Of a DNA stretch of 64,000 bases, positions 1,177 through 60,405 are shown in pieces. Source of the DNA: Multifurca ochricompacta (Eukaryota > Basidiomycota > Agaricomycetes > Russulales > Russulaceae); NCBI GenBank assembly GCA_022496185.1, contig WTXG01000144.1, forward strand, positions 1 through 64,000, given 5' to 3'. Below the pieces are notes generated by a model. That model searched no databases. It saw nothing but the letters and a program-made list of their open reading frames with translations, and was not told the DNA's origin. The first letter of the stretch is position 1, and the number at the start of each line of letters is the position of its first letter. The translations under genes were made by a program, and so were the position numbers.

Positions 1177-1182
1177 CTCATC

Positions 1183-2683: not shown

Positions 2684-2689
2684 TCGGCT

Positions 2690-6160: not shown

Positions 6161-6237
6161 AAGAACCAACCTGCAGACCCCAAGAAATTCCCCAGTACAT
6201 GCTCCCTCAGCAACATCCTACTACCACACAATCAATC

Positions 6238-7378: not shown

Positions 7379-7391
7379 CCGGGTCTGCTAG

Positions 7392-7409
7392 AACCAGAAG
7401 AGGGGGTGA
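7392..7409 (+). other. Polypurine tract of gypsy A
   Basis: CCAGAAGAGGGGGTGA directly precedes the 3' LTR, as expected for the plus-strand primer. The same tract precedes the 3' LTRs of gypsies E, F and G. Confidence 0.85.
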
Positions 7410-7992: not shown

Positions 7993-8432
7993 GCAAGGCT
8001 CAAAGTTACAATAGAGTCAAGATCTAGTCAAGCCCATGACGAAGTCAGAGGGCACATGCGTGAGATTTGAAGTCGACGGCAGAGACTCTAAGTCCTGCAA
8101 CAAGTTCAAGATGATGAAGGCTCTCCAAGTCACATCTTGGAGAGTTCAAGTGGGGCTCTAACTGAGAGGATTCAATGAAGTCCGAAGCACCTTTGATTGA
8201 ACACAAGAGAACAGACTTCGTCTGTCTCTCTACTCTAGTTGGTCTTTAAATACATGTGGAGCTAGCTATGTCATATTATGTAGAAGCATCTAGTACTATG
8301 ATATAATGTCTAATAGTAGATCAAGCTAGAACTATGGAGAATTAGGAGGGGTTAGGCCCTCAGTAAGCAAAACACCAGTGAAACACAATATCAAGTCATT
8401 AGTAATGTCACAGGGAGAATTCTGTCACAAAA

Positions 8433-8453: not shown

Positions 8454-8682
8454 TGTTGAACAGGCATGTGCGCAGCATACTGACTGTGGGTGGTTAGCGT
8501 GTTAGGCTAGAAAGACAAGTTACTTCAGAGGTAGAAGAAACTCTATTATACTATACTACACACCTAGAAAGACAAGTTCTATATACAGAGTTAGTCTAGA
8601 GGTAGTGATGATAGTAGAGAGGATGACTTACACTTCAGAGGTAGAAGAAACTCTGAAGTGTAAGAGACAAAACAGACACCCT
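8454..8682 (-). repeat. Partial copia LTR (element J)
   Basis: This begins TGTTGAACAGGCATG and matches the inverted first 230 bp of the solo LTR at 59162-59660, including the intron-bearing duplication. The match ends at the TA (8683-8684) where the Tc1 palindrome starts; the rest of the LTR is missing on the other side of the palindrome. Confidence 0.85.
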
Positions 8683-9046
8683 TACAGTGCCTCACAAAAC
8701 TGAGTCAATGTTTTGCACTTTTGCACTGTTTGTTGAATATCACATCAGCCAAAACAAATATAAACAAAGTCTTGGTATACCATAAAAGGTACAAGATAAG
8801 GGTTATGTAATGCAACAATAATTATGTAATTCTGATCAAAACCTGTGGAGCTATGCCCATTTCAAATTGGGGACTCATTGACTCAGTTTTGTGAGGGGGT
8901 ATCAGAAATATCAGAATCTGATGCTCCACCAAATGTACAGCAACCAATCCTTAATATATGGTTACCATAGTTATCTTGATATTGATGGGACCTGGAATAG
9001 AGCTATTTAAGCATGGTTTACATTCCCAGAATATTATAATTTCCCA

Positions 9047-17327: not shown

Positions 17328-17795
17328 CTAGGTGATGAACAGGCATGTGCGCACAGTGATACTGACTGTGGTTAGCGTGTAAGGCTAGAAGGACAAGTTA
17401 TACTTCAGAGGAGAAGAAAACTCTATTATACTATACTACACACCTAGAAGGACAAGTTATCTACATGAGACAGTTAGTCAAAGGTAAAGTAGTAAGTAAG
17501 AGATAAGTGGGACTTACACTTCAGAGGAGAAGAAAACTCTGAAGTGTAAGAGATGAAATAGACCTCCTTTTATAATCCTACAGGATGGTCTGTGCACAAT
17601 GGAATGTGCTAGAATATACTACTGAGGGACAAAGGCCATTGGCCAGTGAGATATCACATGCTACACAGGATTAGTAAGGTACATCAGTCAGCTGCTGTGC
17701 ATCGCGAGAAAGAAAGTAATAATGATATAGTAAAAAGTCCGAAACTCCGAGTCTATATCTAATCTAATCTTGCACAGCTTAGACCCTAACCTAGA

Positions 17796-18309
17796 TGTTG
17801 ACACAGGACGTGTCTGGAGATGCTTCAGGCATCTAAGGTTCGCTTCAGCTGTAGATTAGATTAGATTAGATTCCGGAGTATCGGACTTTTTATGTTATCT
17901 TTATTACATTTCTTTCTCACCTTACTCAGCTGATTAGTGATGGACTTAGTAATGCGCAGTAAGCATGTGATATCTCTTTGGCCAATGGCCTTTATCCCTC
18001 TCTGTTTATTGTCCGGCACTTGTGGACTTATTCCCAGTGTGCACAGACCATTTCCCCTGGCCCCCATGGGTATATAAGGGTGTCTGTTTCGTCTCTTTCA
18101 CTTCAGAGTTCTTCTACCTCTGAAGTGTAAGTCTTTCCTTTACTGTACTATTCTTATACCTTTAACTAACCGTCTTATGTAGACTATCTGTTTTCTAGGT
18201 CAGTAGTATAGTTAATATAGAGTTCTTCTACCTCTGAAGTACTATCTGTTTTCTAGCCTAACCTGCTACTAACCACAGTCAGTATAACCAGCAGCATGTT
18301 TGTTTGACA
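17796..18309 (+). repeat. 5' LTR of copia D
   Basis: 514 bp, starting TGTTGACACAGG and ending TGTTTGACA. TATATA at 18071-18076 lies about 34 nt upstream of the first copy of the intron-bearing duplication (18105). Confidence 0.95.
18105..18256 (+). promoter_or_regulatory. LTR duplication: intron-bearing copy followed by intronless copy
   Basis: Segment X (22 nt, AGAGTTCTTC to TCTGAAGT) is at 18105-18126. A 56-nt stretch with GTAAGT at its start, CTAAC 18 nt before its end and TAG at its end is at 18127-18182. Segment Y, ACTATCTGTTTTCTAG, is at 18183-18198, and a 20-nt spacer runs to 18218. X recurs at 18219-18240 and Y follows directly at 18241-18256. X2-Y2 is exactly what splicing of X1-intron-Y1 would give. 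X1 with the preceding ACTTC can form a hairpin at the predicted RNA 5' end. The same plan is in all other copia-type LTRs here that span the region. Confidence 0.8.
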
Positions 18310-18325
18310 GGTTATGGGCCCTGCC
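18310..18325 (+). other. Half-tRNA-iMet primer-binding site of copia D
   Basis: GGTTATGGGCCCTGCC directly follows the LTR and is complementary to the anticodon arm of initiator Met tRNA rather than to a tRNA 3' end. Confidence 0.7.
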
Positions 18326-18388
18326 ACTCATACTGATCTGTAAATTCCCTTTTGTTCATTACAGCCCAACTCGCTTTTTTGCACACAA

Positions 18389-18980
18389 TGTTACAATCCT
18401 TACCAACCAACCCCATTTTCTTCCACCTCCCCAATAGCGACCCATCTTTACCACCCACTCTCCACTTCATGATCATGTCCCTGTCCTGGGACCCATCACG
18501 TGCCTTGCTCCCCTCCCCGTGACTTACTTTGGACTTGTTGACATGCTGTATACCTATGTTTGGTCCTTTATCTCTTATCTCGTTATCTCTTTATCTTTAC
18601 GCTCGGACACTTACTTAATACCCTATCAGAAGCCTGACTCTACGCCGTCCGCTTCCGTATATTTGGGCCCACTTGACTCCGATTCCTTATCTCGTAGACG
18701 CCCATCCGATTACGTATATAAGTCCGCTGTAGCTACACTGTAGACCTCAGACTCGACTTATTGAATCCATCGGTGCTTGTCTTCTGGACATCCCTTTGAT
18801 CTCTGAACTCGTCCGTCTTGGAGTTTCTGACTCTTTTCCACTCAACATAGTCTCAGGGTACAGCCCCTTTGACTTTGACTCATCCCATCTCACTCCAAGG
18901 AACCTTATTGGTTTCTTATCCAGTCCCAAACAGTATGCTGTCGCACAAGTCGTGCAGTGCGTCCCGCACCAGACGTAACA
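18389..18980 (+). repeat. 5' LTR of gypsy E
   Basis: Starts TGTTACAATCC and ends CCAGACGTAACA. TATATA is at 18715-18720. The self-primer AGACTCGACTT is at 18749-18759, 34 nt downstream as in gypsy A. Confidence 0.95.
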
Positions 18981-18982
18981 TC

Positions 18983-18993
18983 AAGTCGAGTCT
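18983..18993 (+). other. Self-priming primer-binding site of gypsy E
   Basis: AAGTCGAGTCT, two bases after the LTR, is the exact reverse complement of 18749-18759. Relative to gypsy A, both partners carry the compensating base (CG/CG here, TG/CA in A). Confidence 0.75.
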
Positions 18994-18999
18994 CTCACA

Positions 19000-20509
19000 G
19001 TGGCTTCCAGCCGCAGTCAGACCCTCTTCCGAGAAGAACTCATCGAACGCAGAGACGAGAATAATCTTTCACAGCAAGTACTTGGCTCTGCCGCCTGGAA
19101 AGACTTTGAGTCTGAGTTTGGATACTACGTCTATCACGACGGAAGATACCAACCAGTAGAATACGACGACGAAAAGAGGGTTTGGTATTGCATCTGATAC
19201 TCGGACAGCCGACACTCTTGGGTCACCACAGGACCCGCCCCACCCGAATTTGGACTAGGCCCGTGGAGAGAAAACCCTCCGGCCATTGTCACGGACTCCG
19301 AACCAGAGGAGTATGTAGAAGAACCCAGTGAAGAAGAAGCACCGGCATTAGCAGCGTCTACGTCTCCGGTTGCACCTAGAGTTGTCACGTTCAGAGCCCC
19401 TGCTTTGACAACTCCCACGATATCAGTACAATCCACGAACACCGTCACCCCATTCCACCAAACCATGTCCACCATTGCCGCCCAACTTCCAGACCCTGCC
19501 CCACCAGCCCCAGTGGCGGCACCACCAAATATCCCTCCCCCGTCTGGATGACTATCAGGAGTGTTGCCCCAAATGTTCGCCGGGGACCGCTCACAGAGCA
19601 AAAAGTTTATGTTGGAGTTTACGACCTTTAAAAACTTCAATCACGACGTCCCACAAATTGTCAACCCATTTCAACGCGCCAATTTGTTCCTTTCACTAAT
19701 TCGAGGAGATGCGGTTGATGACTGGACTATGGAGCAGCTGGAGTGGCTGAACGAACAGGTCGAGAGTGGATGCCGTACCACAAGCGAGGGTCTTTGGGAG
19801 ACCATCGCCGAGCGATTTAAAGACGCATTCATGGATGGGCAGGCCAAACAGAAGGCAGCCCAAGAGTTAAAATCCCTTCGGATGGAGAAGGGCGAGTTGG
19901 ACGCATACGTCACCAAGTTCAGAAGCCTGGCGAATAGGGCCGGCTATGACACAGACAAAGAGGCCACACTGGATCTCTTTTCGCAAGGGTTGCCCAACCC
20001 GCTAGTCAAGAATATAATCCAATTTCACCATCCCCATGACTGGGATAGCTGGGTCGATGCCGCCCGCCGACAACAGCAGGACTACCTCGATTTCCAAACA
20101 CGCTTTGGGATCGACACCAGAAAGGGGAAGACTCAAGATCAATGGAAGGCGGCCTTTGGAGTAAAACCTGCCCACCACACTCAGAGGGATCCAAATGCCA
20201 TGGACACCTCTGCAGACTGAGCCCGAGCCCGGGCGATGCTCACAGAAGACGAGCGACAAACACTGATAAAGAGGGACGATGCTTCCGCTGTAAAGCGCTA
20301 GGACATATGTCCCGGGACTGTCCCAAAAAGGGGGTGCGCATCGCCGCTGTCACCATAGCAGAAACCCCCATCCAGAATAATCCACCTACTGTGGATAAGC
20401 AGTCAAAAGAAGAAAAGCTCAGGACATATGGGCTAATATGATGAAAGAGAGCGAGGAAGTGCGTGCCATATTGGTAGAAAAGGTGTTTGCAAAGAAGGAT
20501 TTTTGTTAG
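19000..20509 (+). pseudogene. gag pseudogene of gypsy E
   Basis: Starts at GTG (19000) with ASSRSQTLFREELIERRDEN. Capsid is largely open from 19561 to 20220 (AVDDWTMEQLEWLNEQVESG, FSQGLPNPLVKNIIQFHHPH). The zinc knuckle CFRCKALGHMSRDC lies about 20281-20322. TGA stops at about 19196, 19549 and 20218 each replace a CGA kept in gypsy G, and a frameshift follows near 20266. It ends at TAG 20507-20509; the pol frame overlaps in -1 register. Confidence 0.9.
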
Positions 20510-23500
20510 GCTCAACCCCATCGGCCTGGGCACGAGCACTCCATGTTACCTCTGTGTATGCTAGTCAATTCAAGTCATTAAAAATACCAGTCCATTTTGA
20601 AACTACACAGAGGACGGCCAATCGAGACATTCTAGTGGACTCCGGAGCCACAGATAACTTCATTCACCCATGACTAATCAGAACAATGGGTTTGGGAAGG
20701 CTGGCACTTCCCCAGGAAAAGAATATCTGGAATATTGACGGAACAGCCAATCGCGCTGGAAAGATCACTCACTACACAGACCTGAAGGTTCAGGTTGGAG
20801 AAGTTACGAAGAATATTCGTTTCCTGATTACGGATCTAGGAGACGAAGATCTTATTCTGGGATACCCATGGCTCGCTGCTTTCGAACCCAAGATCAACTG
20901 GGCTGACACGATGATGGATAAAGAATCATATCCCACCATTATCACGTCCATAGGCTATGATTATGCAGTCAGACATCGGACAATAAAGCCACAAGTACAG
21001 AAGAAGAAGACCCAGGTTGCTGTTATGCCACCAAAGCATCAGAGCTAGCCCAAAAAGCAGTACGAGGGCAGACAGAAAAAACATACAGCGACGTAGTGCT
21101 GAGTACCTACCACCGGCATTGGAGGGTGTTTTCTGAAGAAGAATCCCAGCGCTTTCCACCCTCCAGACCATGGGATCACGCCATAGACCTACTTCCTGAC
21201 ACGCCGACAGCATAGATTGCAAAATCTATCCGCTATCCCAGTCCGAGCAGATGGCACTAATGGAATTCCTTGAAGAACATCTGGCAAAGGGATACATTCG
21301 CCCATCCAAGTCGCAGTACGCCTCGCCATTCTTCTTCATCAAAAAGAAGGATGGCAAGCTGCGACCGGTTCAGGATTACCGGCGAATCAACGCATACACC
21401 GTGAAAAGCCTACCCCTTACCGCTCATCTCTGAGCTCATTGACACCATGAGGGATAAGGCCCTCTTCTCGAAGATGGACGTGCGATGGGGTTACAACAAT
21501 GTTAGAATCAAGGAAGGTGACCAGTGCAAGCGGCGTTCAAGACAAACCAAGGGTTGTTCGAGCCCAATGTTATGTTCTTTGGTCTCACGAACTCGCCAGC
21601 GACATTCCAGTCTATGATGAATCACATCTTCCGCGATCTCATCCTCACGGGGGAAGTAGTGGTTTACATGGACACATCCTAGTAGCCACCCCAGACAATT
21701 TGGATCATCACCGAGATCGTGTGCATCAGGTGTTGGACATCTTGCACGAACATGACCTATATCTCAAACCCGCCAAATGTTCCTTCGAACAGCGAAGGTT
21801 GAGTACCTGGGGGTTATCCTGGAGGAAGGACAAGTGCGCATGGATCCTGTTAAAGTACAGGGGATCCGGGAATGGCCTGTCCCAACCTGTGTCAAGATGT
21901 CAGGTCATTCATTGGATTTTGCAACTTTTACCGACGTTTTGTCAAGGGGTTCTCAGGTATGCGTGACCACTGAATGATCTATTGAAGAAGGATGTACCAT
22001 GGCACTGGGACTTGACACAGCAGCAGGCATTTGAACAGATTAGGGACCTAGTCGGCTCGGAGCCAGTACTCATCCAACCAGATCTAAGTCGCCCCTTTGA
22101 ACTGGAAGTGGATGCCTCTCACTTTGCAAACAGAGCTGTACTCTACCAGAGGGATGCCGCACAAATCCTTCACCCAGTAGCATACTACTCTGAACCTTCT
22201 CTCCGGCCGAACGAAATTATGACATCTGGGATAGGGAGCTCTTGGCCATAGTTAAAGCATTACGACATGGCGACCTTACCTGGCAGGAGCTCCACATAAG
22301 ACCATCATCCACACCGACCATTCCAACCTATTGTACTGGAAAGAACCCCATAAAATCAGTCGACGCGTGGCACGAGAAGTCTTAGAGCTAGAAGAGTACG
22401 ATTTCACCTTGAAACACATTGCCGGAAGCCAAAATGCCAGAGCAGATGTGTTATCACGCAGACCAGATATGCATACAGGCGAGGACGACAACAATGACAT
22501 CACTGTCCTCCCAGAAGAGGTGTTTGCAAAGACCGCTGTTGTCAGTCTCCATGATATGGACCTATGGGCACAGGTCTCACAAAATATGAACCCCTCACTC
22601 TGCCGCTTATGGGCTGATGCACATAATTTGAAAGAAGTCAATGGCCTCTGGTGGAAAGACAGAGATCAACTCGTTGTCACCGGTGGCGACAACATTAAGA
22701 GGGGGGTGATCCATTTTCACCACGATCTCCCCTCCGCCGGCCACCCAGGCATTGCCAATACCTATGCACTTGCCAAGCGCGATTACTGGTGGCCCAATAT
22801 GAAGAAGGATGTTGAGAACTACGTACAGGGATGCGCAGCATGTCAAGCTAACAAGGTCAACACACACCCGAAAGTCCCGCTGATGCACCCCATTACTCCC
22901 GTCTCGTCAACCCCCTTTCAAACCATCGCCATGGACTTTATTGTCAAATTACCCAAGTCACAGGGTTTCGACACCATCCTCACGATCACCGACCACGATT
23001 GCTCCAAAGCGGCCCTGTTCATCCCCTGCAATGAGACCATTACAGCTGAAGGAGTAGCGAAGCTGTACCTGAATCATGTATATCGCCACTATGGACTCCC
23101 CAGGAAGATTATATCCGACCGAGACACCAGGTTCACATCGGCATTCGCTAAAACCCTGTGCAAGACGTTAGATATCGCACAAAATATCTCAACAGCTTAT
23201 CACCCACAAACAGACGGGCAGTCCAAATGAACAAACCAGTGGCTGGAACAATACCTTCGGTTCTGGTGCAATAGTAGACAAGATGACTGGGCGGAATGGC
23301 TATCAACCGTGGAGTTTGCCCACAATTCATGGCCCAACGGGACTACAAAAACCACCCCCTTTTCCCTTATCATGGGTTGGACCCCACACACCACATGGAT
23401 AGCTAAGCCCACCAATGTCCCATTGGTAACCAAACAGATAAGCCAATGGGAGGAACTGCGGCAACCGGCCAATGAAAATCTGGTAAAGGCGCAACAGCTT

Positions 23501-23974
23501 CTGGCAGCACAGCCAAGCACATTCACACCTTATCAGACCAATGACTGGGTATGGCTCGAGGGCAGGAACATTCACACGTCACACCCCTCAGCCAAACTAG
23601 TGCCCCAACGTCACAGACCCTTCCAGATCACAAGGAAGCTGTCAGACGTATCCTATGAACTGCAGTTGCCGCCGAAATGGAAGATCCACCCAGTCTTCCA
23701 TGCCAAGCTCCTGACCCCTTATAAGGAAACCTCCATTCATGGAGAAAACTTCCCAAGACCCCTGCCTGACCTTATCGATGGCGAAGAAGAATGGGAAGTG
23801 GAGCGTATTCTAGACTCCAAGCAACAAGGCCGAGGGCGTAAACTGCACTACCTAATCAAGTGGAAGGGATTCCCAGACTCTGACAACTCGTGGGAACCAG
23901 CCGGAGATATCTCTGCTCCAGCCCTTATCTCGGAATTCCACATCCGACACCCAGAAGCGCCTAAGAATGCTTAA
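20500..23974 (+). pseudogene. pol pseudogene of gypsy E
   Basis: Protease is recognisable by the DSGATDNFI block (about 20638). RT shows [11 protein letters not shown] and KPAKCSFEQ. A single-base deletion falls inside the YMDD codons at about 21673, wrecking the catalytic motif and the frame. RNase H (FELEVDASHFANRAVL) follows; integrase is largely open from 22331 to 23230 with HHCC zinc domain, MDFIVKLPKS, ISDRDTRFTS and YHPQTDGQS, then a TGA at 23228 where gypsy A has an Arg codon. The open 23309-23974 frame carries the GPF-type module and chromodomain (LIKWKGFPDSDNSWEP). Confidence 0.92.
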
Positions 23975-24050
23975 AAGAAACACCCCTCGACCCCGTCAAT
24001 TCCCCCAGTACATGCTCTCTCAGCAACGTTCTAACACCATCCAGTCTATC

Positions 24051-25245
24051 ATGTCTTTTGTCGCTGCCAACGCCGCCATTGATGCCTTCACGCCACCGTT
24101 GCAGTGGTGGAAAACTTTCCTTCCGCTCATCCCTCCACACGTCCCTCCTCCCCCATTGATTACGAAGCTGCTGAGGCCCGGGTTAAGAACCAGTCTCCAA
24201 ACCCGAACGATGACTTCAAACACAGCGAAGAACCGCACCCAAATGACCTACTGGGTATGGAGTTGGATGATGAGGTACCGGAATTCCCGTTCTTCACTAA
24301 CAACCCCAACTCCTCGACCTATTTCCCCCTCGAAATCACCATGGCTGACGGAACCATCGCCATCGCCAAATATATATTCTACACCAATGGAGGAATGGAT
24401 GTAGCAGGCTGTATGAAGAAGGATGGCCCTGTCTATGGGGCCCCGGTCTACTTAGAAGAAAGGTATACAGGACGTCTCCACCACACCATGACTGATGAGC
24501 AGCTTGGACATTTGGCTGCCGAAGACTCTCGTGCCTTTGCCATTGACGAGGTGCTGATGATATGCGCCTTCCGCGTCTCAAAGCTGAGGTGATGAGACTG
24601 CGGAAGAATCTGACGTTGCGCACAACGCTTAACAAACAATACAAAGAGCACGCGAAGATGATGGCAAGGCTGACGAACGGGATGTTCCAAGTGGAACAGG
24701 AGTTGGTGGAAATCAGGAAGAGGCTGGAGAAAGGGGACGCGTATCAGACTATCGCCGAACGGTACACCGACACGTATGCACGACCCCTTCCCCACGATCG
24801 TTGGGGGCTGCCCCAAGGCTGATACCAAACCGATTTGAAATGCCGCGTATGCACGAGAACCCTGTGGAGAGACATGCTGGCGATGCGATAGTAAGTACCA
24901 CATTAGCTGGAACTGCCCCCTCAATCGCAAGTGGTGTCGCATTGTCGCAGCAACCTCCACTGGAGCCGGTTCTGTATCTTCCGCCGTGTGGGAGTTGCCC
25001 CAACAATCGTCAATCTGTCAGGATGGTGCGGCAAGTGCCTCCGCCACAACTCCGGACATCGTGAGCTGGACTGTCTGATCCATGACATGTGCCGCCTATG
25101 TGGCCAGTGCGGCCCATACGGGTTCCTTCGCACCCACCAATGTCCACAGGACTTGGACAAGGAGAATTACACATTGGACGATCGTAATGTAGCCGATGAT
25201 TACCTGGACTTAGTGCAGGATGATGATGGTACGAGTCGTTTCTAG
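24051..25245 (+). pseudogene. ORF3 of gypsy E, complete in length but frameshifted
   Basis: This is the best plus-strand reference for ORF3: about 395 codons from MSFVAANAAIDAF (24051) to DDDGTSRF-TAG (25243-25245). Parts: Pro/Ser-rich N-terminus with SPIDYEAAEARVKNQ; core LEITMADGTIAIAKYIFYTN, VAGCMKKDGPVYGAPVYLEE; RLHHTMTDEQLGHLAAEDSR; Lys/Arg-rich probable coiled coil (LKAEVMRLRKNLTLRTTLNK); EKGDAYQTIAERYTDTYARP; and a tail with regularly spaced Cys/His ending WCGKCLRHNSGHRELDC and CRLCGQCGPYGFLRTHQC. Frameshifts lie near 24105, 24560, 24820 and 24935. The Cys pattern suggests nucleic-acid binding; that is inference. Confidence 0.75.
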
Positions 25246-25276
25246 CCGGGTCTGCTAGAACCAGAAGAGGGGGTGA

Positions 25277-25868
25277 TGTTACAATCCTTACCAACCAACC
25301 CCATTTTCTTCCACCTCCCCAATAGCGACCCATCTTTACCACCCACTCTCCACTTCATGATCATGTCCCCGTCCTGGGACCCATCACGTGCCTTGCTCCC
25401 CTCCCCGTGACTTACTTTGGACTTGTTGACATGCTGTATACCTATGTTTGGTCCTTTATCTCTTATCTCGTTATCTCTTTATCTTTACACTCGGACACTT
25501 ACTTAATACCCTATCAGAAGCCCGACTCTACGCCGTCCGCTTCTGTATATTTGGGCCCACTTGACTCCGATTCCTTATCTCGTAGACGCCCATCCGATTA
25601 CGTATATAAGTCCGCTGTAGCTACACTGTAGACCTCAGACTCGACTTATTGAATCCATCGGTGCTTGTCTTCTGGACATCCCTTTGATCTCTGAACTCGT
25701 CCGTCTTGGAGTTTCTGACTCTTTTCCACTCAACATAGTCTCAGGGTACAGCCCCTTTGACTTTGACTCATCCCATCTCACTCCAAGGAACCTTATTGGT
25801 TTCTTATCCAGTCCCGAACAGTACACTGTCGCACAAGTCGTGCAGTGCGTCCCGCACCGGATGTAACA
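25277..25868 (+). repeat. 3' LTR of gypsy E
   Basis: 592 bp, preceded by the polypurine tract CCAGAAGAGGGGGTGA and followed by target duplication CACAA. Confidence 0.95.
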
Positions 25869-25873
25869 CACAA

Positions 25874-26732
25874 GCTCACAAAAAGCTTCAAAGTCTTTCC
25901 CACCGCTTTCTTCCAGTGAGCTTCTTATTTACTGTCTGTGCACCTTAACACCCCACAGGATGATGCAGTTTACTGCTCATCCTGAACTGTTTGGCTAGCC
26001 CTTCGGGGTTCTTGCAAAAGGTGATGAGGGACCCTAAGTGGGTGAAACACCTTGAGCTCCTTGAGTGTGCACTAGGTATTAGTAACTTCATAGTTGTAGC
26101 TGGGTTTTCGTCCCATAGATAGTCTTAGTAGGCCTATAGCCAGAAGCTTGTGGCTTTAAGTCCAGTCAATGCTTGGCTCTATCTGTAAGCCAGGTTTAGC
26201 GACCTGCATGTGGAGTTTAGGGTCTAGAACAAGGCATGGGTAGTCACTCCCATGACGCTTGGGCTCGATACAAGTAGGCTGCACTACTATAGTCTTTACA
26301 TAGTAGATATAGTCTTCATCTCTGGGCATAAGTATCCGTTGCCTTTGTAGGGTAACCACGCCCTACCAGAGACAGACTAGACATCTACTTAGTCATGGCC
26401 CCAATCATCTAGGGCTTAATCATGGACTCCACCACCAGCATTAGAGGAAGGGCTATACACCCTTTGTCTCTAATGGAACTTGCAGTTGGCTCCTCCATGA
26501 CATGACTCCCAGTCTTGTTTACACTAGACACTCTGGCTAGTCTACCAGAGCTTATGTCTAGTTGCAGGATTGCGCTAGACAGCTTTACTATACCTAGAAA
26601 GTCGCACAACAGAGGCAGGACCTTCTAGGTTCTGAAGCATAGTGCCACAGTAGGGGTGGCACTCTTAAGCGAGACCTGGGCACTGGTTCTAACTGCTCCT
26701 TGGAACCAGGAACACTCTTATAACATCTCACA
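25874..26732 (+). other. Copia D 5' leader, noncoding
   Basis: With 18326-18383 this forms a leader of about 0.9 kb between primer site and gag ATG, nearly identical to copia H 43788-44649 and partly to the J fragment at 312-515. I see no conserved ORF. TTCATTACAG at about 18350-18359 resembles a 3' splice site. Conservation probably reflects packaging or translation signals; none can be named. Confidence 0.75.
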
Positions 26733-29700
26733 ATGCCGTCCTCAATTGTCTTCCCCCCTCCTCCAAGATGGAGCGTCTCGATGGCTCCAACTGGCAGGTT
26801 TGGTCTGCCAATTTCAATGCCCTTTTGAGGATGAATGGGCTCAGAAGGCACATTATTACACCTTACCCTGATATGCCCCTCCTCCCAGAGGACAAGGAGG
26901 AGAAGGAAAAATGCAGAAGGAAGTAATTGACCCCATCCTTAGGGAATGGATGGGTGAAGAGGAAATGCTTATTGGGCTCCTCTTTCTTAATGTAACCCAA
27001 GAGGTCTACTCCCAAGTAGCCTCTGATGCCAATTATCCTTCTCTTAGTGAGAAGTATAATAAGTTGGAGCGGCTTTATGGCTCTGTAGGTAGCATGGCCA
27101 CATATAATTTGTGGCTTGCCCTGGTGTCCTTCCATCTTGATGAAGGACAGTCATTCAGAACCCAATTACAAAAGGTTCTGGATGCCAGGAGTACCCTTAG
27201 GGAGAACGGGATGGAGGTCAATGACCTCCAGATGAGCTTCATATTATTAAAGCTCTCCCAGACTCCTACAGTGCCATTGCCAGCTCCATACTGGCCTCTG
27301 GCGACCCAGAGCGTCTTTCTCCTCAGGACCTTGTGCAGAGGTTCCTAAATGAGGAGAGTCGTCTGGCTGGTCCATCGGGAAGTGGTAGTGCAGTCCTGTC
27401 TAAGGCTGCACCTGTCAAATCAAAACCAAAAACTACAAATTTATCACCACTTCCCGCTGCTGCCCCTGGTTCACAAGGGGTGGTCTGCTTCTACTGCCAA
27501 AAGCCTGGACATAAGTCCAATGCTTGCGCAAAGAAGAAGAAGGACCTGGAGAATGCCAAAAAGGGCAAGGCAGGGAACAAGAAGAGGGCTGAGGCCCAAC
27601 ATGTACATACTATAGCCACTGTAGTTAATGGTAGTGGCAAAATAGAGGAGGTGCAAGAAGCACCTCGCATTGCCTTTATGCACAACCTATAATCTGGATA
27701 TCAACTCAGATTATTGGATGCTTGATAGTGGAGCAACGTCTCATTTCAGTCCAAACCTTGAAGACTTTGATACATATAAAGTTGACAGTACCCATGAAGT
27801 ATCACTAGGTGACAACTCCATAGTCAAAACAAGTGGAGTTGGCACTGTGATCATCAGGACTGATCAAGGTTTTGACTTGGAATTGAGAATGTGCTACATA
27901 TGCCGGAGGACATAAAATACTCTCCGCCAGTGCCCTAGTAGAAAAAGGGGCAACTGTGTTCTTAGATAATAAGAAGGCAACAATTAAATATGGCGACAAT
28001 ATAATAGCGGAAGCATGGAAGTTTGGCAAACTGTATTGGGTACTAGGCAAACACGTCCTAAAAGTATCCATACATCTGCATCTGCCTCACTAGAAATCTG
28101 GCATCAAAGAATGGGCCATATGTCTAAAGAAGCCCTGAAGAGATATGCTCCTGAGGCGGTTAAAGGCCTCAAGATTAATAATAGCCAAGTGGAAGACAAG
28201 CCATGTTATGGCTGTGAAATGGGCAAGTCCCATTGTCTTCCATTTCCCCCATCTTCAAAGCGCGCATCAGCCCCCCTTGAGATCCTTCATAGTGATCTTG
28301 TAGGTCCCTTGCAGTGCAGTTCAATACAAGGGAATCTATACTTTGCCACCTTCTTGGACACTTTAGCAGATACGCTCTAATCGTTCCAATGAATCCAAAG
28401 ATCTGTTTACACCAGTTTTTAATAAACTGAAGACACTACTTGAAAACAAATTTAATCACAAAATCAAGTGTCTTCATACAGATCGTGGTGGCGAGTATGT
28501 GAACAAGGCGCTGAAGGCAACACTTGAAGATTTGGCATAGAGCATAAACTTACGATGCCGTACAGTCCACAACAGAATGGAAGGGCCGAGAGGTTCAATA
28601 GAACCATTATGGAAAAAGGCACTAGCATGCTGCATGATGCAGGCCTGTCCTCGGTTTTTGGGAGTGTGCTGTCGAGACAGCATGTCATATATATAACAGA
28701 ACTCCCATTCGTTCTAATAAGTGGAAAACTCCGCTTGAGCTTCTGGTTGGGAACAAACCAGATGTCTCATACTTTAAGGTCTTTGGTTGCAAAGCCTATT
28801 ACATGTTCCAGAGGGCAAGCGGCGTAAATAGATCCCAAAGCCAGGGAAGCCGTCTTTGTGGGTATGAGCCCACTTCTAAGGGCTATACACTTTGGGATAG
28901 TGTACCCGGTCTCTCATCTCTTCACGAGATGTTACATTTGATGAGAGTCCTTCCCATCCCCTCTGATAAGGACAACAGAGCAGAGAAATCCATAGAGCAA
29001 CCTAGTCAAGGTGGCTCATTTACTTTACCTGGTGGCAATGTCCAGTCACCACCAGCAACAGCTACGCATGTTCCTGAGGCTCCTCAGCATGAGGAAGACC
29101 TGGAAGAGGAACAGGAGGACATCGTACCTCCTCAATTAGCACCACAGCCTACCACACCCACATGTAATGAAGACACCACACACCCTCAGACTATATATCA
29201 GACCCCTCCATCTCAAATCATGGAACCATCCTCCCCTCCCAAAAGAACCAAAGCAATCAGAAAATCACAAAGGATTGCAGACAGAATTCCTCAACCTAAT
29301 TTTCAGAGGACAAGTCCACGCTCTGAACGACGAGATAGGGCAATCCAAGAAGATTTAGACTTGGATACTGCATGTCCCAATCGAATCGTCGTCTGAATCC
29401 TCGCTTCTACAACGAGGATAATGCGGAGTTTGTGCAAGGTTCTTCCAGACTTGGTCAGATGGATCTGCTTAATGCTGCAGGATTGCCTTATAGGGATCCT
29501 CTTACATTTAAAGAAGCAATGGAGTCTGATAATGCCAGTGATTGGCTTGAGGCATGTCAATATGAAATTGATGCCTTAGAAAAACTTAAAGTGTGGGCCT
29601 TGAAGACCTTCCTGAAGGTAGAAAGGCTGTAAAGTCCAAGTGGGTCTTTAAATTGAAAGCAGATGGACGCTTTCGTGCTAGGCTTGTAGCAAAAGGGTTC

Positions 29701-30945
29701 ACCCAAATAGAGGGGGTGGACTTCGATGAAACTTTCTCCCCAGTCGCCAGATTTGAGTCTCTTAGACTATTATTAGTGTTGGCCGCGCTTGAGGATTGGG
29801 AAATCCATCAGATGGATGTCAAATCGGCATTCCTACATGGCGATCTGGATGAGGAGATTTATATGGAGCAACCTGTTGGTTTCGTCGTTGCTGGACAAGA
29901 GTCCAAAGTTTGTAGGCTACAGAAGGCTCTGTATGGCCTCAAACAAGCTTCCTGAGCATGGAACTTGCAATTCCATGCAGTTCTCAATGAACTGAGCTTT
30001 ACTCGGACGTACTCTGATGCAGGAGTATATGTGTATCATCACCAAGAGGGGGATGGTTCACTTTTCATCATTTTATATGTTGATGACATCACTATACTTG
30101 GGTCCTCCACTAAGAAGATTCAATGGCTGAAGGACTCTCTATCTAGCCGATATGAGATGACCGATCTTGGCGAAATCCAGTCCTACCTTGGAGTTAATAT
30201 CACCAGGGATCATCCTAACAAGACACTGAATATCAACCAGACAGCCTATGTATCATCCATAGTTGAGAGGTTTGGAATGGGGGATTCCAACCCAGTATAT
30301 ACTCCTCTACCCTCTGGCGTGGATGTTCATTTGGTCAAGTTTGAAGACCAGGCATCTACCTCTGACATTAAGAGGTATCAGCAGTTAATGGGGTCTCTGC
30401 TTTGGGTGCAGATTGGAAGCAGACCTGACATTAGTTTTGCTGTTGCACGCCTTAGCCAATTTGCTTCCAACCCTTCCCAGCAGCACATGCAACTAGCAAA
30501 GTATGTCTTAGCCTATCTAAATGCTACAAAAGACTACAAGTTGCGCTATTCTGGAGGGAATGGTGAAGTTGGCCTTCATGGCTTTGCGGATTCCTCATGG
30601 GGAGATCAAGAGGACCGCCACTCCACCTCTGGCTATGTCTTTTTCCTTGCTAATGGAGCCATTAGTTGGTGCTCCAGGAAACAAAAGACAGTAGCACAGT
30701 CCACCACAGAAGCCGAGTATATGAGCCTTGCTGAGGCTTCAAATCAGGCAGCGTGGTATAGGACATTTATGCAGGAATTGGGGTATGAAGTTACTTCACC
30801 CATACAACTGCATTGTGACAACAAGGGTGCAGTAGATCTTGCATTAAACCCAGTCACAGGAAGGCGATCAAAGCACATACCAATAAAGTACCATGCCATT
30901 AGGGAGTATGTAGAATCACACCAGATTGACTTGATCATCTTTTGA
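26733..30945 (+). pseudogene. gag-pol pseudogene of copia D
   Basis: It starts MPSSIVFPP at 26733 but is soon frameshifted relative to copia H. Parts: gag with YNKLERLYGSVGSMATYNLW, zinc knuckle CFYCQKPGHKSNAC (27486-27527), protease DSGATSHF (27724-27747), integrase zinc domain (WHQRMGHMS, CYGCEMGKS; about 28095-28220) and core (LHSDLVGPLQ, YSPQQNGRAERFNRT), then RT open from 29593 with YVDD (30076-30087; TGA at 29955), then RNase H (GFADSSWGD, STTEAEYMSLAEA). An internal deletion near 30935 removes the C-terminal MLADGLTK block kept in copia H and I. Several frameshifts make it nonfunctional. Confidence 0.92.
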
Positions 30946-31234
30946 TCACATGGTAACTGGATTTGGACTAGTGCTGGAATGAAGGAGCTGGAATCTGGAG
31001 ACTTTGTTCACCAGTTTCACTTTCCCACCATGCCACATGAGCACGTTCTTGACCTCGAGAGTGACGCAAGAGGTGTGTAGACTTGCATAAGCGAATCTAC
31101 AACTCGTACGCAAAGCTCACAAAGAGTTAGAGAAGTTGGATCTCTGGCTGGCGATATGTTAGTTCAATTGTGAACAGCAGTGTGCTCATTCAATTCATTT
31201 CAACCCAATGATTGATGCCTTCACCATGGAGGGA

Positions 31235-31746
31235 TGTTGACACAGGACGTGTCTGGAGATGCTTCAGGCATCTAAGGTTCGCTTCAGCTGTAGATTAGAT
31301 AGATTAGATTCCGGAGTATCGGACTTTTATGTTATCTTTATTACATTTCTTTCTCACCTTACTCAGCTGATTAGTGATGGACTTAGTAATGCGCAGTAAG
31401 CATGTGATATCTCTTTGGCCAATGGCCTTTATCCCTCTCTGTTTATTGTCCGGCACTTGTGGACTTATTCCCAGTGTGCACAGACCATTTCCCCTGGCCC
31501 CCATGGGTATATAAGGGTGTCTGTTTCGTCTCTTTCACTTCAGAGTTCTTCTACCTCTGAAGTGTAAGTCTTTCCTTTACTGTACTATTCTTATACCTTT
31601 AACTAACCATCTTATGTAGACTATCTGTTTTCTAGGTCAGTAGTATAGTTAATATAGAGTTCTTCTACCTCTGAAGTACTATCTGTTTTCTAGCCTAACC
31701 CGCTACTAACCACAGTCAGTATAACCAGCAGCATGTTTGTTTGACA
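31235..31746 (+). repeat. 3' LTR of copia D
   Basis: 512 bp, preceded by CACCATGGAGGGA and followed by CTAGA. It carries the same intron-bearing duplication as the 5' LTR. Confidence 0.95.
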
Positions 31747-31792
31747 CTAGATGCCTGAAGCACCTCAAGACACATGCCGTGTCAACACTAGG

Positions 31793-33656
31793 ATAATGCC
31801 CAAGTATTCAATGCTTGTCTGTTCAAAGGAGCACTTGGCTGGTTTCAAATAGAGGTCATGTTCCGTCAAGATGTCAAGTACTTCATGGACTTGAGTTCAA
31901 TGGTGGTTAATGTCACTTCCTGTAGCCACCAAAATGTCATCCATATACATGACTACCTCCTCTGTAAGGATAAGATCTTGGAAGATATGATTCATCATCA
32001 ATTGAAAGGTTGCCAGTGAGTTCATTAAGCCAAAGAACTGTCAAACAATCATGCTGCTGGTTATACTGACTGCAGTTAGTTAGCGGTTTAGGCTAAAAGA
32101 CAAGTTAAACTTCAGAGGAAGAAGAACTCTTTAATACTATACTACTGACCTAAAAGACAAGTTAACTACACAGAGAATGTTAGTCAAAGGAAAAGTAGAA
32201 AGTAAAGTAAAGACGACTTACACTTCAGAGGAAGAAGAACTCTGAAGTGTAAAGGACAAAACAGACACCCTTATATACCCATGGGGGCCAGGAGAAATGG
32301 TCTGTGCACACTGGGAGTAAGTCCACAAGTGCCAGACAATAAACAGAGAGGGATAATGGCCATTGGCCAAGGAGATATCACATGCTTACTGCGCATTACT
32401 AAGTCCATCACTAATCAGCTGAGTAAGGTGAGAAAGAAATGTAATAAAGATAACATAAAAAGTCCGATACTCCGGAATCAAATCTAATCTAATCTACAGC
32501 TGAAGCGAACCTTAGATGCCTGAAGCATCTCCAGACATGTCCTGTGTCAACAAGAACATGATGTTGGGTTTGAAGAGTCCTTGATTGGTCTTGAAGGCGG
32601 CCTTAGGCTGGTCACCCTCTCAAATACAGATGTTGTTATAACCCCAACAGATGTCCATCTTTGAAAACAAGGCTTTATCGCACATTTTATTGATGATTTC
32701 TGAGATTAGGGGAAGTGGATAGTTGTTTTTCACCATTAACTTGTTAATCCATCTGTAGTCCTGTACCGGTCACAGTTTCCCATCTTTCTTTTTGATAAAG
32801 AAGAATGGTGAGGCATAAGGGGAGTTGGATGGTTGTATGTACCCCTTAGCCAAATGTTCTTCCAGGAAGGTAGAAAGTGCCTCTTTCTCAGGCTGAGACA
32901 GCAGGTAGATTTTACAGTCAACTGCCTGTGGAGTGTCCAGTATGAAGTCAATGGCATGATCCCATGGTCAAGAGGGAGGGAAACGTTGCAACTCCTCTTC
33001 TGAGAAGACCTTTCAGTGCTGATGATATTCTGTAGGGACTATTTCTTCGAATGTCTTTTCTGGGTTCTTCTGTGCCTCTGCCTGTGCCAGCTCTGATGCC
33101 TTTGTAACATAACAGTATACCTGATCTACAGGTTCTACATCACTCCAGGTGACAGCAGATCCCATGACAATGGCATGGGTGAGAGGGTGCCATGCAGCAT
33201 AATCATACCCCAAAGATGTAATGAGGACTGGGTAGAAGTCTTTATCCATGGTTGCTTCTGCCCAGTTAATCTTTGGTTCGAATGCTGCTAGCCAGGGATA
33301 TCCCAGAACCATGTCTTCATCCCCTAGATCTGTGATGAGGAAACAAAGTTGTTTAGTTTGCTCCCCAACCTGTACTTCCAAGTCACAGCAATGTGTGATC
33401 TTCCCAGCCTTGTTTGCTGTCCTGTCTATATTCCAAATATTTTTCTCTTGGGGGAGTAATTGCATCCCCAGTCCTAACACTTTCTGGAGTCTTTGGCTGA
33501 TAAAATTGTCTGTTGCTCCAGAGTCAATTAATATTCATCTGTTGGCCATCTTCTGTCTGGTTTCAAAGTGTACTGGTATTTTTAAAGACTTGAAACAACT
33601 AGTGTACACAGAAGTAACATGGAGTGCTCTTGCCCAGGCCAATGGGGTCGAGCCAA
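31793..33656 (-). pseudogene. pol 5' half of gypsy C (protease and RT)
   Basis: On the minus strand: protease region near 33540-33480, then open 33480-33013 (LPQEKNIWNIDRTANKAGKI, ITDLGDEDMVLGYPWLAAFE). RT continues at 33000-32558 and, after the solo LTR at 32039-32552, at 32038-31793 with YMDD (31947-31936) and the conserved KPAKCSFEQ-like block. It continues at 17327 beyond the nest. A TGA in the protease-proximal part (about 33537), other stops and frameshifts break it. Confidence 0.88.
32039..32552 (-). mobile_element. Copia-type solo LTR with intact target duplication
   Basis: 514 bp, from TGTCAAACAATC to CTGTGTCAACA, flanked by AGAAC on both sides (32034-32038 and 32553-32557). Removing it restores the gypsy C RT sequence. 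On the minus strand the intron of the duplication is 32221-32166 (GTAAGT to GTAG, CTAAC present). Confidence 0.93.
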
Positions 33657-42563: not shown

Positions 42564-43199
42564 AAGGAGCTGGAATCTGGAGACCTTGTACACCAGTTTC
42601 ACTTTCCCACCATGCAACATGAGTATATTCTCGACCTCAAGAGTGACGCAAGTGGTGTGAGCATGCCAGAAGTAGGCATTCAAATATGTCAGGCATTTCA
42701 GCTTGCATAAGCGAATATACAACTCATATGCAAAACTCACAAACCGCACTTGAGAGTTAGAGAAGTTGGATCTCTGGCTGGTGACATGTTCATTCAATTA
42801 TGAACAGCAGTGTGCTCATTCAATTCATTTCCACCAATGATCGATGCCTTCACCATGGAGGGATGTTGACACATGATGTGTCTAGAGATGCTTCAGGCAT
42901 CTAAGATTTACTTCAGCTGTAGATAAGATTAGATTAGGTTCCGGAGTTTTGGACTTTTACAATATCTTTATTACATTTCTTTCTCTCCTTACTCAGCTGA
43001 TTAGTGATGTACTTAGTAATGCACAGTTAGCATGTGATATCTCTTTGGCCAATAGCCTTTATCCCTCTTTGTTCATTGTCCGGCACTTGTGGACTTATTC
43101 CCAGTGTGCACAGACCATTTCCCCTGGCCCCCATGGGTATATAAGGGTGTCTGTTTCATCTCTTTCACTTCAGAGTTCTTCTACCTCTGAAGTGTAAGT

Positions 43200-43711
43200 T
43201 GTTGACACGGGACATGTCTGGAGATGCTTCAGGCATCTGAGGATCACTTCAGCTGTAGATAAGATTAGATTAGGTTCCGGAGTTTCGGACTTTTTACGAT
43301 ATCTTTATTATGTTTCTTTCTCACCTTACTCAGCTGATTAGTGATGCCCTTAGTAATGCGCAGTAAGCACGTGATATCTCCTTGGCCAATAGCCTTTATC
43401 CCTCTAAGTTTATTGTCCGGCACTTGTGGACTTATTCCCAGTGCGCACAGACCATTTCCCCTGGCCCTCATGGGTATATAAGGGTGTCTGTTTCGTCCTT
43501 TACACTTCAGAGTTCTTCTAACATCTGAAGTGTAAGTTCCTTCTAGTTTACTCTCTACTTCCTTTAGACTAACGCTTCTTATAGTACTTGTCTTTTCTAG
43601 GTCAGTAGTGTAGTAATACAGAGTTCTTCTAACATCTGAAGTTACTTGTCTTTTCTAGCCTAAACCGCTACTAACCACAGTCAGTATAACCAGCAGCATG
43701 ATTGTTTGACA
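43200..43711 (+). repeat. 5' LTR of copia H
   Basis: Starts TGTTGACACGGG and ends TTGTTTGACA, with TATATA at about 43475-43480. Confidence 0.95.
43509..43658 (+). promoter_or_regulatory. LTR duplication with intron (copia H variant)
   Basis: X1 is 43509-43531 (AGAGTTCTTC to ATCTGAAGT); the intron is 43532-43584 (GTAAGT, CTAAC, ATAG; 53 nt); Y1 is TACTTGTCTTTTCTAG at 43585-43600; spacer; X2 at 43620-43642; Y2 at 43643-43658. X and Y differ from those of copia D (TAACATC against TACCTC), yet X1 equals X2 and Y1 equals Y2 here. Confidence 0.8.
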
Positions 43712-56653: not shown

Positions 56654-57165
56654 TGTTGACACGGGACGTGTCTGGAGATGCTTCAGGCATCTGAGGATCG
56701 CTTCAGCTGTAGATAAGATTAGATTAGGTTCCGGAGTTTCGGACTTTTTACGATATCTTTATTATGTTTCTTTCTCACCTTACTCAGCTGATTAGTGATG
56801 CCCTTAGTAATGCGCAGTAAGCACGTGATATCTCCTTGGCCAATAGCCTTTATCCCTCTAAGTTTATTGTCCGGCACTTGTGGACTTATTCCCAGTGCGC
56901 ACAGACCATTTCCCCTGGCCCTCATGGGTATATAAGGGTGTCTGTTTCGTCCTTTACACTTCAGAGTTCTTCTAACATCTGAAGTGTAAGTTCCTTCTAG
57001 TTTACTCTCTACTTCCTTTAGACTAACGCTTCTTATAGTACTTGTCTTTTCTAGGTCAGTAGTGTAGTAATACAGAGTTCTTCTAACATCTGAAGTTACT
57101 TGTCTTTTCTAGCCTAAACCACTACTAACCACAGTCAGTATAACCAGCAGCATGATTGTTTGACA
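56654..57165 (+). repeat. 3' LTR of copia H
   Basis: 512 bp, preceded by CACCATGGAGGGA and followed by the target duplication TAAGT. Confidence 0.95.
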
Positions 57166-57346
57166 TAAGTTCCTCTTTTACTATACTGTTCTCTTACCTT
57201 TAACTAACTGTCTTATGTAGACTACCTGTTTTCTAGGTCAGTTGTATAGTTAATACAGAGTTCTTCTACCTCTGAAGTACTACCTGTTTTCTAGCCTAAC
57301 TGCTACTAACCACAGTCAGTATAACCAGCAGCATGATTGTTTGACA

Positions 57347-59081: not shown

Positions 59082-59755
59082 GGACCAGTTCAGACCAGTT
59101 GTGGACTGGCAACTGGACCAAAAAGGACCGTTTTTCAGTCTTTAGGCAGTCCAGTCCAGTTTGTTGAACAGGCATGTGCACAGCATACTGACTGTGGGTG
59201 GTTAGCATGTTAGGCTAGAAAGACAAGTTACTTCAGAGGTAGAAGAAACTCTATTATACTATACTACACACCTAGAAAGACAAGTTCTATATACAGAGTT
59301 AGTCTAGAGGTAGTGATGATAGTAGAGAGGACAACTTACACTTCAGAGGTAGAAGAAACTCTGAAGTGTAAGAGACAAAACAGACACCCTTATATACTTC
59401 AAGGGATGGTCTGTGCACACTGGGAATAAGTCCACAGGTGCCAGACAAAGTCCAAACAGTAAACATGAGGGAGAAAGGCCATTGGCCACTACAGAAATCA
59501 CATGTTACATGATGTATCAGTCAGCTACTGTGGAATGTGAGAAAGAAAGTAATAATGATATAGTAAAAGTCCGAAACTCCGGTATCTAATCTAATCTACA
59601 AAGTAGCTAATCTAATCACCTGATGCCTGAAGCATCACCGAACATCTTCTGTGTTCAACACAGTTATCTGGACATAAGGTGCAACTGGCAACCAGTTGCA
59701 GTTGCTGGTTGTGTCCCATTATGGTCAAAAAACCAGACCAGACCAGACCTTTAAA
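59082..59755. repeat. GGACCAGTT-rich repeat, split by a solo LTR
   Basis: 59082-59161 and 59666-59755 are rich in CCAGTT, GGACC and CAGACC motifs in both orientations (CTGGCAACTGGACC; CCAGACCAGACCAGACC). This resembles a MITE with subterminal repeats, but I could not fix its ends or a target duplication. Confidence 0.35.
59162..59660 (-). mobile_element. Copia-type solo LTR
   Basis: 499 bp, TGTTGAACAGGC to TGTGTTCAACA, with target duplication CAGTT (59157-59161 and 59661-59665). Same family as 8454-8682 and 59907-60405, including the intron-bearing duplication on the minus strand. Confidence 0.93.
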
Positions 59756-59906: not shown

Positions 59907-60405
59907 TGTTGAACACAGAAGATGTTCGGTGATGCTTCAGGCATCAGGTGATTAGATTAGCTACTTTGTAGATTAGATTAGATACCGGAGTTTTGGACTT
60001 TTACTATATCATTATTACTTTCTTTCTCACATTCCACAGTAGCTGACTGATACATCATGTAACATGTGATTTCTGTAGTGGCCAATGGCCTTTCTCCCTC
60101 ATGTTTACTGTTTGGACTTTGTCTGGCACCTGTGGACTTATTCCCGGTGTGCACAGACCATCCCTTGAAGTATATAAGGGTGTCTGTTTTGTCTCTTACA
60201 CTTCAGAGTTTCTTCTACCTCTGAAGTGTAAGTCATCCTCTCTACTATCATCACTACCTCTAGACTAACTCTGTATATAGAACTTGTCTTTCTAGGTGTG
60301 TAGTATAGTATAATAGAGTTTCTTCTACCTCTGAAGTAACTTGTCTTTCTAGCCTAACACGCTAACCACCCACAGTCAGTATGCTGTGCACATGCCTGTT
60401 CAACA
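59907..60405 (+). mobile_element. Copia-type solo LTR
   Basis: 499 bp, TGTTGAACACAG to CCTGTTCAACA, with target duplication CACTA (59902-59906 and 60406-60410), inside the RT fragment. TATATA is near 60171. It is the inverted counterpart of the solo LTR 250 bp away. Confidence 0.93.
60205..60352 (+). promoter_or_regulatory. LTR duplication with intron (third variant)
   Basis: X1 60205-60227 (23 nt, with AGAGTTTCTTC), intron 60228-60280 (GTAAGT, CTAAC, ATAG; 53 nt), Y1 AACTTGTCTTTCTAG at 60281-60295, spacer, X2 60315-60337, Y2 60338-60352. X and Y are again identical within the LTR but differ from copia D and H. Confidence 0.8.

Follow-up and report, generated by a model that had tools for sequence, protein, structure and literature searches.

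A unit split by a candidate intron and its intron-free copy within the long terminal repeats of a copia-type retrotransposon in Multifurca ochricompacta

A sequence that replicates through spliced RNA would normally be expected to lose its introns. The long terminal repeats (LTRs) described here raise the question of how a retrotransposon could hold, side by side in each LTR, a unit interrupted by an intron-like segment and a second unit which is exactly what removal of that segment would leave, and of how the two units are kept alike. The LTRs were found in a stretch of 64,000 nucleotides of the basidiomycete Multifurca ochricompacta (positions 1 to 64,000 of contig WTXG01000144.1, assembly GCA_022496185.1), which is referred to as the window. 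Their order is U3, X1, intron 1 (GTAAGT..CTAAC..TAG), Y1, spacer, X2Y2, and U5; X1Y1 is called unit 1 and X2Y2 unit 2.

The two-unit LTR in the window and in the genome

Copia D occupies positions 17796-31746 of the forward strand, has LTRs of 514 bp that are 99% identical to each other, and is flanked by the target site duplication (TSD) CTAGA (at 17791-17795 and 31747-31751). In its 5′ LTR (TGTTGACA..TGTTTGACA, 17796..18309), U3 (17796-18104) includes a TATA box (18071..18077) that lies 34 nt before X1. X1 (exon 1, 18105..18126), the first base of which is the probable 5′ end of the RNA, is followed by intron 1 (18127..18182, 56 nt), Y1 (exon 2, 18183..18198), a spacer (18199-18218) and X2Y2 (18219..18256, with X2 at 18219-18240 and Y2 at 18241-18256), which is the spliced copy of X1Y1 and 100% identical to it. 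The spacer and X2Y2 together make up a proposed intron 2 of 58 nt (18199..18256), with the donor GTCAGT and, as its acceptor, the TAG in which Y2 ends. U5 (18257..18309, from its probable boundary) completes the LTR. The primer binding site (PBS) GGTTATGGGCCC, which we take to resemble the half-tRNA-iMet site of Drosophila copia, stands directly after it (18310..18321). In the 3′ LTR (31233..31746), X1 to Y2 extend from 31542 to 31693 (31542-31693).

The coding remnants of copia D (26911..30945, forward strand) are arranged in the copia-type order: gag (gag_2), zinc knuckle, pre-integrase (gag_pre-integrase), a weak integrase (rve_3), and reverse transcriptase (RVT_2). In the domain search, gag_pre-integrs was found at 2.7e-11 and RVT_2 at 9.5e-50 and 2e-22; gag_2 (24.1 bits) and rve_3 (21.5 bits) of this copy fall under the curated cut-offs of 27 and 26.5, and gag_2 of copia H has an E value of 8.9e-14. 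The elements have copia-type gag and RVT_2 with integrase upstream of the reverse transcriptase, direct LTRs with TG..CA ends about 6 kb apart, a short TSD (5 bp), and a PBS beside the 5′ LTR; of 19 LTR pairs on the same strand, 17 have this PBS behind the first LTR. The two-unit element is a Ty1/copia LTR retrotransposon.

The other LTRs of the window have the same two-unit structure. Copia H, on the forward strand, has a 5′ LTR at 43200..43711 (X1 43509-43531, intron 1 43532-43584, Y1 43585-43600, X2Y2 43620-43658) with the PBS at 43712, and a 3′ LTR at 56654..57165. Its insertion, with the TSD TAAGT, split the LTR of copia I (forward strand), of which X1 (43172-43193) and the GTAAGT of intron 1 are at 43172..43199, and the rest of intron 1, Y1, the spacer and X2Y2 resume after H at 57166..57294. 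Solo LTRs are present at 32039..32552 (reverse strand; XY variant TTCCTC / TTAACTTGTCTTTTAG), 59162..59660 (reverse strand), 59907..60405 (forward strand), and 17333..17790 with the rest at 31747-31787 (reverse strand). The span 17333-31787 is thus one solo LTR interrupted by the insertion of D (TSD CTAGA). A partial LTR at 8454..8684 (reverse strand) has the entire two-unit region. These ten LTRs (both LTRs of D and of H, the split LTR of I, the four solo LTRs, and the partial one) were aligned as 11 pieces and read by eye. The X and Y sequences vary among them, and in all ten unit 2 is unit 1 without the GT-AG segment, to the base, as the first-pass annotation had claimed.

New copies are found within the X1/intron 1 region of older family LTRs: H lies after the GTAAGT of copia I (43195-43199 / 57166-57170), and elsewhere in the genome a full LTR runs straight into a fragment that begins in X1 (L075) or in intron 1 (L076). 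There may be a preference for inserting near the place where the RNA of resident copies starts. The window also contains four related 7.4-kb elements (581-7993, 18388-25868, 34483-41916, and 48062-55504) with LTRs of about 580-600 bp, two of which interrupt copia D and H. The element at 581-7993 is of the Ty3 type, with an integrase, a chromodomain and a Tf2-like SH3 domain. The two-unit design was absent from the three Ty3-type LTRs tested, one of which had a single 15-nt repeat at 87% and two of which had nothing.

Genome-wide (53.8 Mb, 605 contigs), the X1 palindrome with its donor gave 1,520 exact matches, compared with 0 for a backwards control pattern, and X1|intron|Y1|GTNNGTAG gave 1,439 exact-pattern matches. 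The LTRs were then parsed in two ways. The first parse, in which only TGAAGTGTAAG was forced, gave 131 unique hits: 35 were the palindrome on the other strand, 5 were rejected LTR stretches (three with small changes, one truncated, and one split by an insertion), and 91 were parsed. The second forced GTAAG, GTNNGTAG and [TC]AG, and left the equality of the units, the lengths, the branch motif and the variable donor bases unforced; its 118 hits gave 91 unique LTRs after removal of duplicates. As these 91 LTRs include element pairs and possibly segmental duplicates, they do not represent 91 independent insertions.

In the second parse, X1Y1 and X2Y2 are exactly equal over 37-41 nt in 81 of the 91 LTRs, and in the ten others the units differ by one or two edits. 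The 81 equal LTRs vary among themselves, with 14 sequences of X, 30 of Y, and 40 of XY; it had been stated that X and Y differ between variants and are the same in both units of the copies compared, and this extends to most of the LTRs parsed from the genome. A comparison of unit distances within and between copies, which the first-pass annotation had proposed, gave a summed difference between unit 1 and unit 2 of 13 edits over the 91 LTRs, compared with at least 436 edits when the units were re-paired at random (2,000 re-pairings), which excludes chance. Divergence between LTRs is 0.24 per base in intron 1 vs 0.144 in XY. The borders of the identity, as taken from the first parse, are sharp: it starts at (C)AGAG in 88 of the 91 LTRs, and it ends exactly at the TAG before GTNNGTAG (TAG|GTNNGT) in 85. 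The last exon base is also mirrored: L081 has CTGAAGC|GTAAGT in unit 1 and CTGAAGC|TAAC in unit 2. An X1 of CTGAAG|GTAAG, guessed for X2Y2 variants read as CTGAAG|CTAAC, had 0 matches; the real X1 ends in CTGAAGC|GTAAGT, and once the junction is placed at CTGAAGC the spliced-copy rule is upheld in L081. Its sister copy L082 has GCATAAG at donor 1 instead of GCGTAAG (a CpG-type change) and an intact unit 2; in L067 the junction is off by one G. The two-unit observation is confirmed, and is stronger than first stated.

Two candidate introns and a proposed replication cycle

Intron 1 has the sequence features of a spliceosomal intron (GT donor, branch site, AG acceptor, short length). It is 50-57 nt long in the 91 LTRs, its donor is GTAAGT in all of them (GTAAG and the AG acceptor having been forced by the parse), and its branch motif, which was not forced, is CTAAC in 84, CTGAC in 5, and CTAAT in 2. 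X2Y2 is the exact exon-exon junction predicted for removal of intron 1. There is a strong case that this intron is spliced from the RNA. The spacing from TATA to AGAG is 34 nt in 85 of the 91 LTRs and 33 nt in four, with the TATA match absent in two; the distance of about 34 nt that had been noted in copia D recurs in most of the LTRs parsed. Because of this spacing and the sharp left border of the identity, the start of the RNA is placed, as the probable position, at AGAG (the first base of X1).

Since the identity ends at TAG|GTNNGT and Y2 itself ends in a TAG acceptor, a second intron can be proposed, which would comprise the spacer and X2Y2. This intron 2 would be 56-60 nt long, compared with 50-57 nt for intron 1. 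Its donor is GTCAGT in 62 LTRs, GTGTGT in 26, GTATGT in 2, and GTTAGT in 1 (the GT..GT frame being forced in the second parse only). The TAG that ends the unit is followed by GTNNGT in copy 1 and by C in copy 2, i.e., the same unit end reads as an exon-intron border in copy 1 and as an intron-exon border in copy 2. Y2 often resembles a branch site, pyrimidines and TAG in succession, and the proposed intron 2 ends, for example, in CTAACTTGTCTTTTAG, which is like a branch site, pyrimidines and acceptor. At the X|Y junction, many variants have a TAAC-like branch motif and others a weaker one (e.g. GTACTATC); in several variants TAAC is completed only across the junction, and others (ACTATC) are poor. 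There are good grounds for thinking that this candidate intron 2 is also spliced from the RNA. Removal of both introns leaves X-Y-U5, which is letter for letter the X2Y2-U5 of the LTR.

A replication cycle with two splicing events, which we consider probable as a whole, would connect these features as follows. The terminal repeat R would be XY (37-41 nt in equal copies), split at the 5′ end of the RNA. Element RNA would begin at X1, and its 5′ leader would lose intron 1 (joining X1 to Y1) and intron 2 (joining Y1 to U5), thereby giving X-Y-U5-PBS. Reverse transcriptase would copy the doubly spliced leader into the minus strong-stop XY-U5. The RNA of the 3′ LTR would stay unspliced, so that a contiguous X2Y2 would remain there as the landing site (3′ R); a putative poly(A) site lies near the end of Y2. 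The strong-stop would pair with X2Y2, a step for which the sequences also give good grounds, and would be extended through the spacer, Y1, intron 1, X1, and U3. The new LTR would consist of U3-X1-intron 1-Y1-spacer, followed by an X2Y2-U5 rewritten from the spliced X1Y1-U5. In this manner both introns and both units would be kept, and unit 2 would be a slave copy whenever a spliced template was used. Replication of unspliced RNA, which would leave unit 2 as it was, could also occur, so that splicing may be frequent and not obligatory; the sequences support splicing that is frequent relative to mutation.

The first-pass annotation had suggested that strong-stop cDNA from spliced 5′ RNA ends is built into the LTR in each cycle. 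The rewriting of unit 2 in this way, though perhaps not in each cycle, fits the data well: it would account for the exact copies in 40 different sequences, for the borders of the units at the expected RNA 5′ end and at splice sites, and for their near-equality at insertion (see below). The removal of a single intron fits less well, however. A leader from which only intron 1 was removed (XY-spacer-XY-U5) is expected to give LTRs with a third unit or with a deletion of intron 1, and neither was found: exact patterns for intron 1 missing alone (X1Y1 followed by donor 2, in U3 context) and for any XY followed by donor 2 (a third unit or loss of intron 1) each had 0 matches in the genome. It is conceivable, if unlikely, that only intron 1 is spliced, that XY-spacer-XY-U5 rewrites unit 2, and that reverse transcriptase restores the two units by jumping between XY repeats. 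Such a scheme would account for the exact copies without the second splice event, and reverse transcriptase is well known to recombine direct repeats. Yet the expected LTRs with a third unit or without intron 1 number 0, compared with 1,439 canonical ones (exact pattern), and there would be no reason for the unit to end at TAG|GTNNGT in 85 of 91 LTRs, or for Y2 to resemble a 3′ splice site.

LTRs that look fully spliced (U3-XY-U5) are present at 49 places with 31 XY sequences (exact pattern, genome), and LTRs missing only unit 2 at 4 places (exact pattern, genome). Deletion between the X repeats (22-23 bp) or the Y repeats could give these short and unit-2-less forms, so they are not counted as proof of the cycle with two introns. 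L077 and L078, the two read of four places with one common XY, have the same flanks and thus belong to a duplicated segment. The short form might instead be the ordinary, ancestral LTR, from which the two-unit form was derived via an intron-bearing duplication, with the short copies as relics. This is very improbable: one bona fide element does have two short LTRs (L073 and L074) with a PBS and the TSD TAAAG, but the 49 short copies contain 31 XY sequences, 10 of which recur among the 91 long LTRs sampled, as would fit short forms arising repeatedly from long ones. Moreover, the proposal concerns the origin of unit 2, not how it stays equal to unit 1.

In the favoured cycle, intron 1 has to be removed at the 5′ end of the RNA and retained at the 3′ end. 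X1 and the bases just upstream of it form an inverted repeat which takes in donor 1 (in copia D, 18095..18131 of the forward strand, with arms at 18095-18108 and 18118-18131 that are 93% complementary). If the RNA starts at AGAG, the 5′ arm is absent from the 5′ leader and present in the RNA of the 3′ LTR. A hairpin between U3 and donor 1, which could not form fully in RNA beginning at X1, would thereby retain intron 1 at the 3′ end. Folding of three LTRs predicted a hairpin of -15.4 to -20.1 kcal/mol. The mean predicted pairing probability of donor 1 was 0.59 for RNA from AGAG, 0.80 with 40 nt of U3, and 0.64 with shuffled U3 (90 controls, from 30 of the 91 LTRs), and the rise exceeded 0.2 in only 47 of the 91 LTRs. 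Each of the six bases of CACTTC, which precedes AGAG, is kept in at least 90 of the 91 LTRs. Position -7, which faces the T of the donor, varies (A in 54, T in 29, C in 8), so that the stem has a mismatch there in the 37 LTRs in which it is not A. Donor 2 is predicted to be equally paired at both ends (0.745 and 0.738), and therefore the fold gives no help for intron 2. Plausibly, and with moderate confidence, the hairpin keeps intron 1 in the 3′ LTR. The furthest-reaching form of the proposal (that the host spliceosome makes the terminal redundancy, that the two splicings are obligatory in reverse transcription, and that the U3 hairpin confines splicing to the 5′ end) is tentative, and we give it slightly less than an even chance.

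Equality at insertion, decay, and direction of copying

When the two units become equal can be addressed with elements that have both LTRs. Among 20 candidate element-pair regions, 19 gave two parsed LTRs (the second LTR of L040 being truncated), and two of these (L033 and L045), in which the first LTR is not followed by a PBS and the two LTRs probably do not belong to a single element, were dropped, leaving 17 pairs. In these, the LTRs differ from each other by 81 edits in 7,915 bases (1.0%) and the units by 9 in 1,310 (0.7%); with identical copies removed (14 pairs), the values are 71 in 6,513 and 8 in 1,076. Independent divergence of X1 and X2, which the first-pass annotation had named as evidence against repeated rewriting, is thus no higher than that between paired LTRs. 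It follows that the units were mostly equal at insertion and then decayed independently, like the LTRs. Equality at insertion followed by ordinary decay is the signature of a replication cycle, not of upkeep in place.

Upkeep in place would mean DNA-level gene conversion between the units of one LTR, with the GT-AG segment looped out. Such conversion would give equality within LTRs (81 of 91) and could produce the matched changes of both Y copies per LTR seen in L034, L035, and L037. We nevertheless consider it highly unlikely: conversion would have to cover tracts of 16-23 bp precisely to their last base and yet leave the 55-nt loop next to them untouched, the divergence of the units is of the same order as that of the LTRs, and L039 and L042 were inserted with unequal units that are still unequal in both LTRs. 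Furthermore, in L037 intron 1 and U5 changed together with both Y copies, fitting exchange of a whole R-U5 block. That the GT-AG segment is no longer spliced, a single ancestral splicing having made unit 2 and selection keeping the units alike, is scarcely credible: present-day splicing is indeed read here from patterns in DNA, but there are 40 XY sequences, each common to its own two units, and re-pairing the units raises their summed difference from 13 edits to at least 436. This counter-evidence led us to reject both DNA-level conversion and selection alone as the main causes of unit equality.

The cycle with two introns, in its simple form, does not predict all of the pairs. In three of the 17 elements (L034, L035, and L037) XY differs between the 5′ and the 3′ LTR, each LTR being self-consistent; in L037 the differences are confined to intron 1, both Y copies, and U5, with no change in the stretch of U3 compared. 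The pattern suggests exchange of an R-U5 block by recombination, or mixed templates.

The direction of copying can be followed through single changes. The change of CTTTTAG to CTTATAG in Y1 is present in 13 copies, 11 of which have it in both units and two in unit 1 only. These two are the two LTRs of one element, in which Y2 keeps the old CTTTTAG. The converse (CTTATAG in unit 2 alone) had 0 matches. This fits unit 2 following unit 1. At a second site, a change is found in unit 2 only in three places; the CTTCGTC that unit 2 has there occurs in both units of L067. In two of the 17 elements (L039 and L042) the units were unequal already at insertion, in both LTRs. In view of these and of the changes in unit 2 only, the direction from unit 1 to unit 2 is not strict. 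The hybrids with unequal units could have arisen by transfer of the strand between two different RNAs packaged in one particle. A unit-2-only variant (Y1 TTTGTCTAG, Y2 TTCGTCTAG) stands at C53:84557 and at C390:30885, with identical local sequence, and could be inherited or a duplicated segment.

Known systems and what the design would mean

In DNA, X1 and Y1 are split by intron 1 and X2Y2 is contiguous. Compared with other Ty1/copia elements, with which it shares copia-ordered domains, LTR ends, TSD and PBS, the family differs in that its 5′ R would come into being only once an intron had been removed, and in that a second, intron-free copy lies within the LTR. We know of no copia element with such a split R plus an intron-free copy, and the two-unit design was not found in the open-licence literature as covered by titles and the beginnings of abstracts. 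As far as searched, this way of handling R is new. The two-unit pattern had 0 matches in viral_contigs, and none of the 311 stretches there that were picked up as gag relatives was confirmed by tblastn. The protein collection contained 21 gag relatives, 9 of which were aligned with the query. An Rfam search of the 64-kb window gave no hits, and a scan for sigma-70 promoters and terminators was irrelevant here. The vector design described in PMC5542766 is unrelated.

Foamy viruses offer a working analogy. According to the available part of one study, their major splice donor lies inside R, and in the 3′ LTR it is reported to be masked by a structure that needs additional RNA upstream (U3 nucleotides), SHAPE having been compared for +1 to +198 and -13 to +198, and U1 binding suppresses the 5′ poly(A) site independently of splicing (PMC3694450). 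The likeness, on the part of the source available, would be a donor in R that is recognised at the 5′ end and that, in RNA of the 3′ LTR, is presumably concealed by U3 nucleotides absent from the 5′ end. The difference is that a spliced copy of R is present here, whereas none is mentioned in that part of the source (PMC3694450), and that here the donor's own intron precedes its spliced product, unlike the foamy virus R as described there. The elements have copia gag and reverse transcriptase and not spumaretroviral pol/env, and the comparison is one of working, not of kinship.

Penelope-like elements that retain introns were reportedly described by Arkhipova et al. in 2003. In the portion available of a later source, the route by which these elements keep introns is still debated, an antisense template being favoured and an unspliced sense one not excluded (PMC3846280). 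They are alike in being retroelements whose retrotransposition allows retention of introns; they have another class of reverse transcriptase and other ends, and that part of the source has no spliced R landing on a second copy. The present elements have RVT_2 and integrase-type domains, and a GIY-YIG endonuclease was absent among the domain hits. Introners (repeated introns) share with this family the presence of similar short introns in more than 1,000 places. In this family the intron spreads, as far as observed, as a component of an LTR.

Two LTR introns have apparently been kept in more than 1,000 LTR copies, with the spliced product stored beside the unspliced one and used as the landing site for transfer. 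If this is true, reverse transcription would include splicing as a functional step, and transfer of the first strand would be traceable by sequence, as unit 2 would record the spliced 5′ end of the previous cycle. Genomic DNA would then reveal the start of the RNA, the splice junctions, and the co-packaging of different RNAs. If, in addition, the host spliceosome makes the terminal redundancy, introns in an LTR would be stably inherited through an RNA intermediate, and the primary transcript would have no R as such at its 5′ end.
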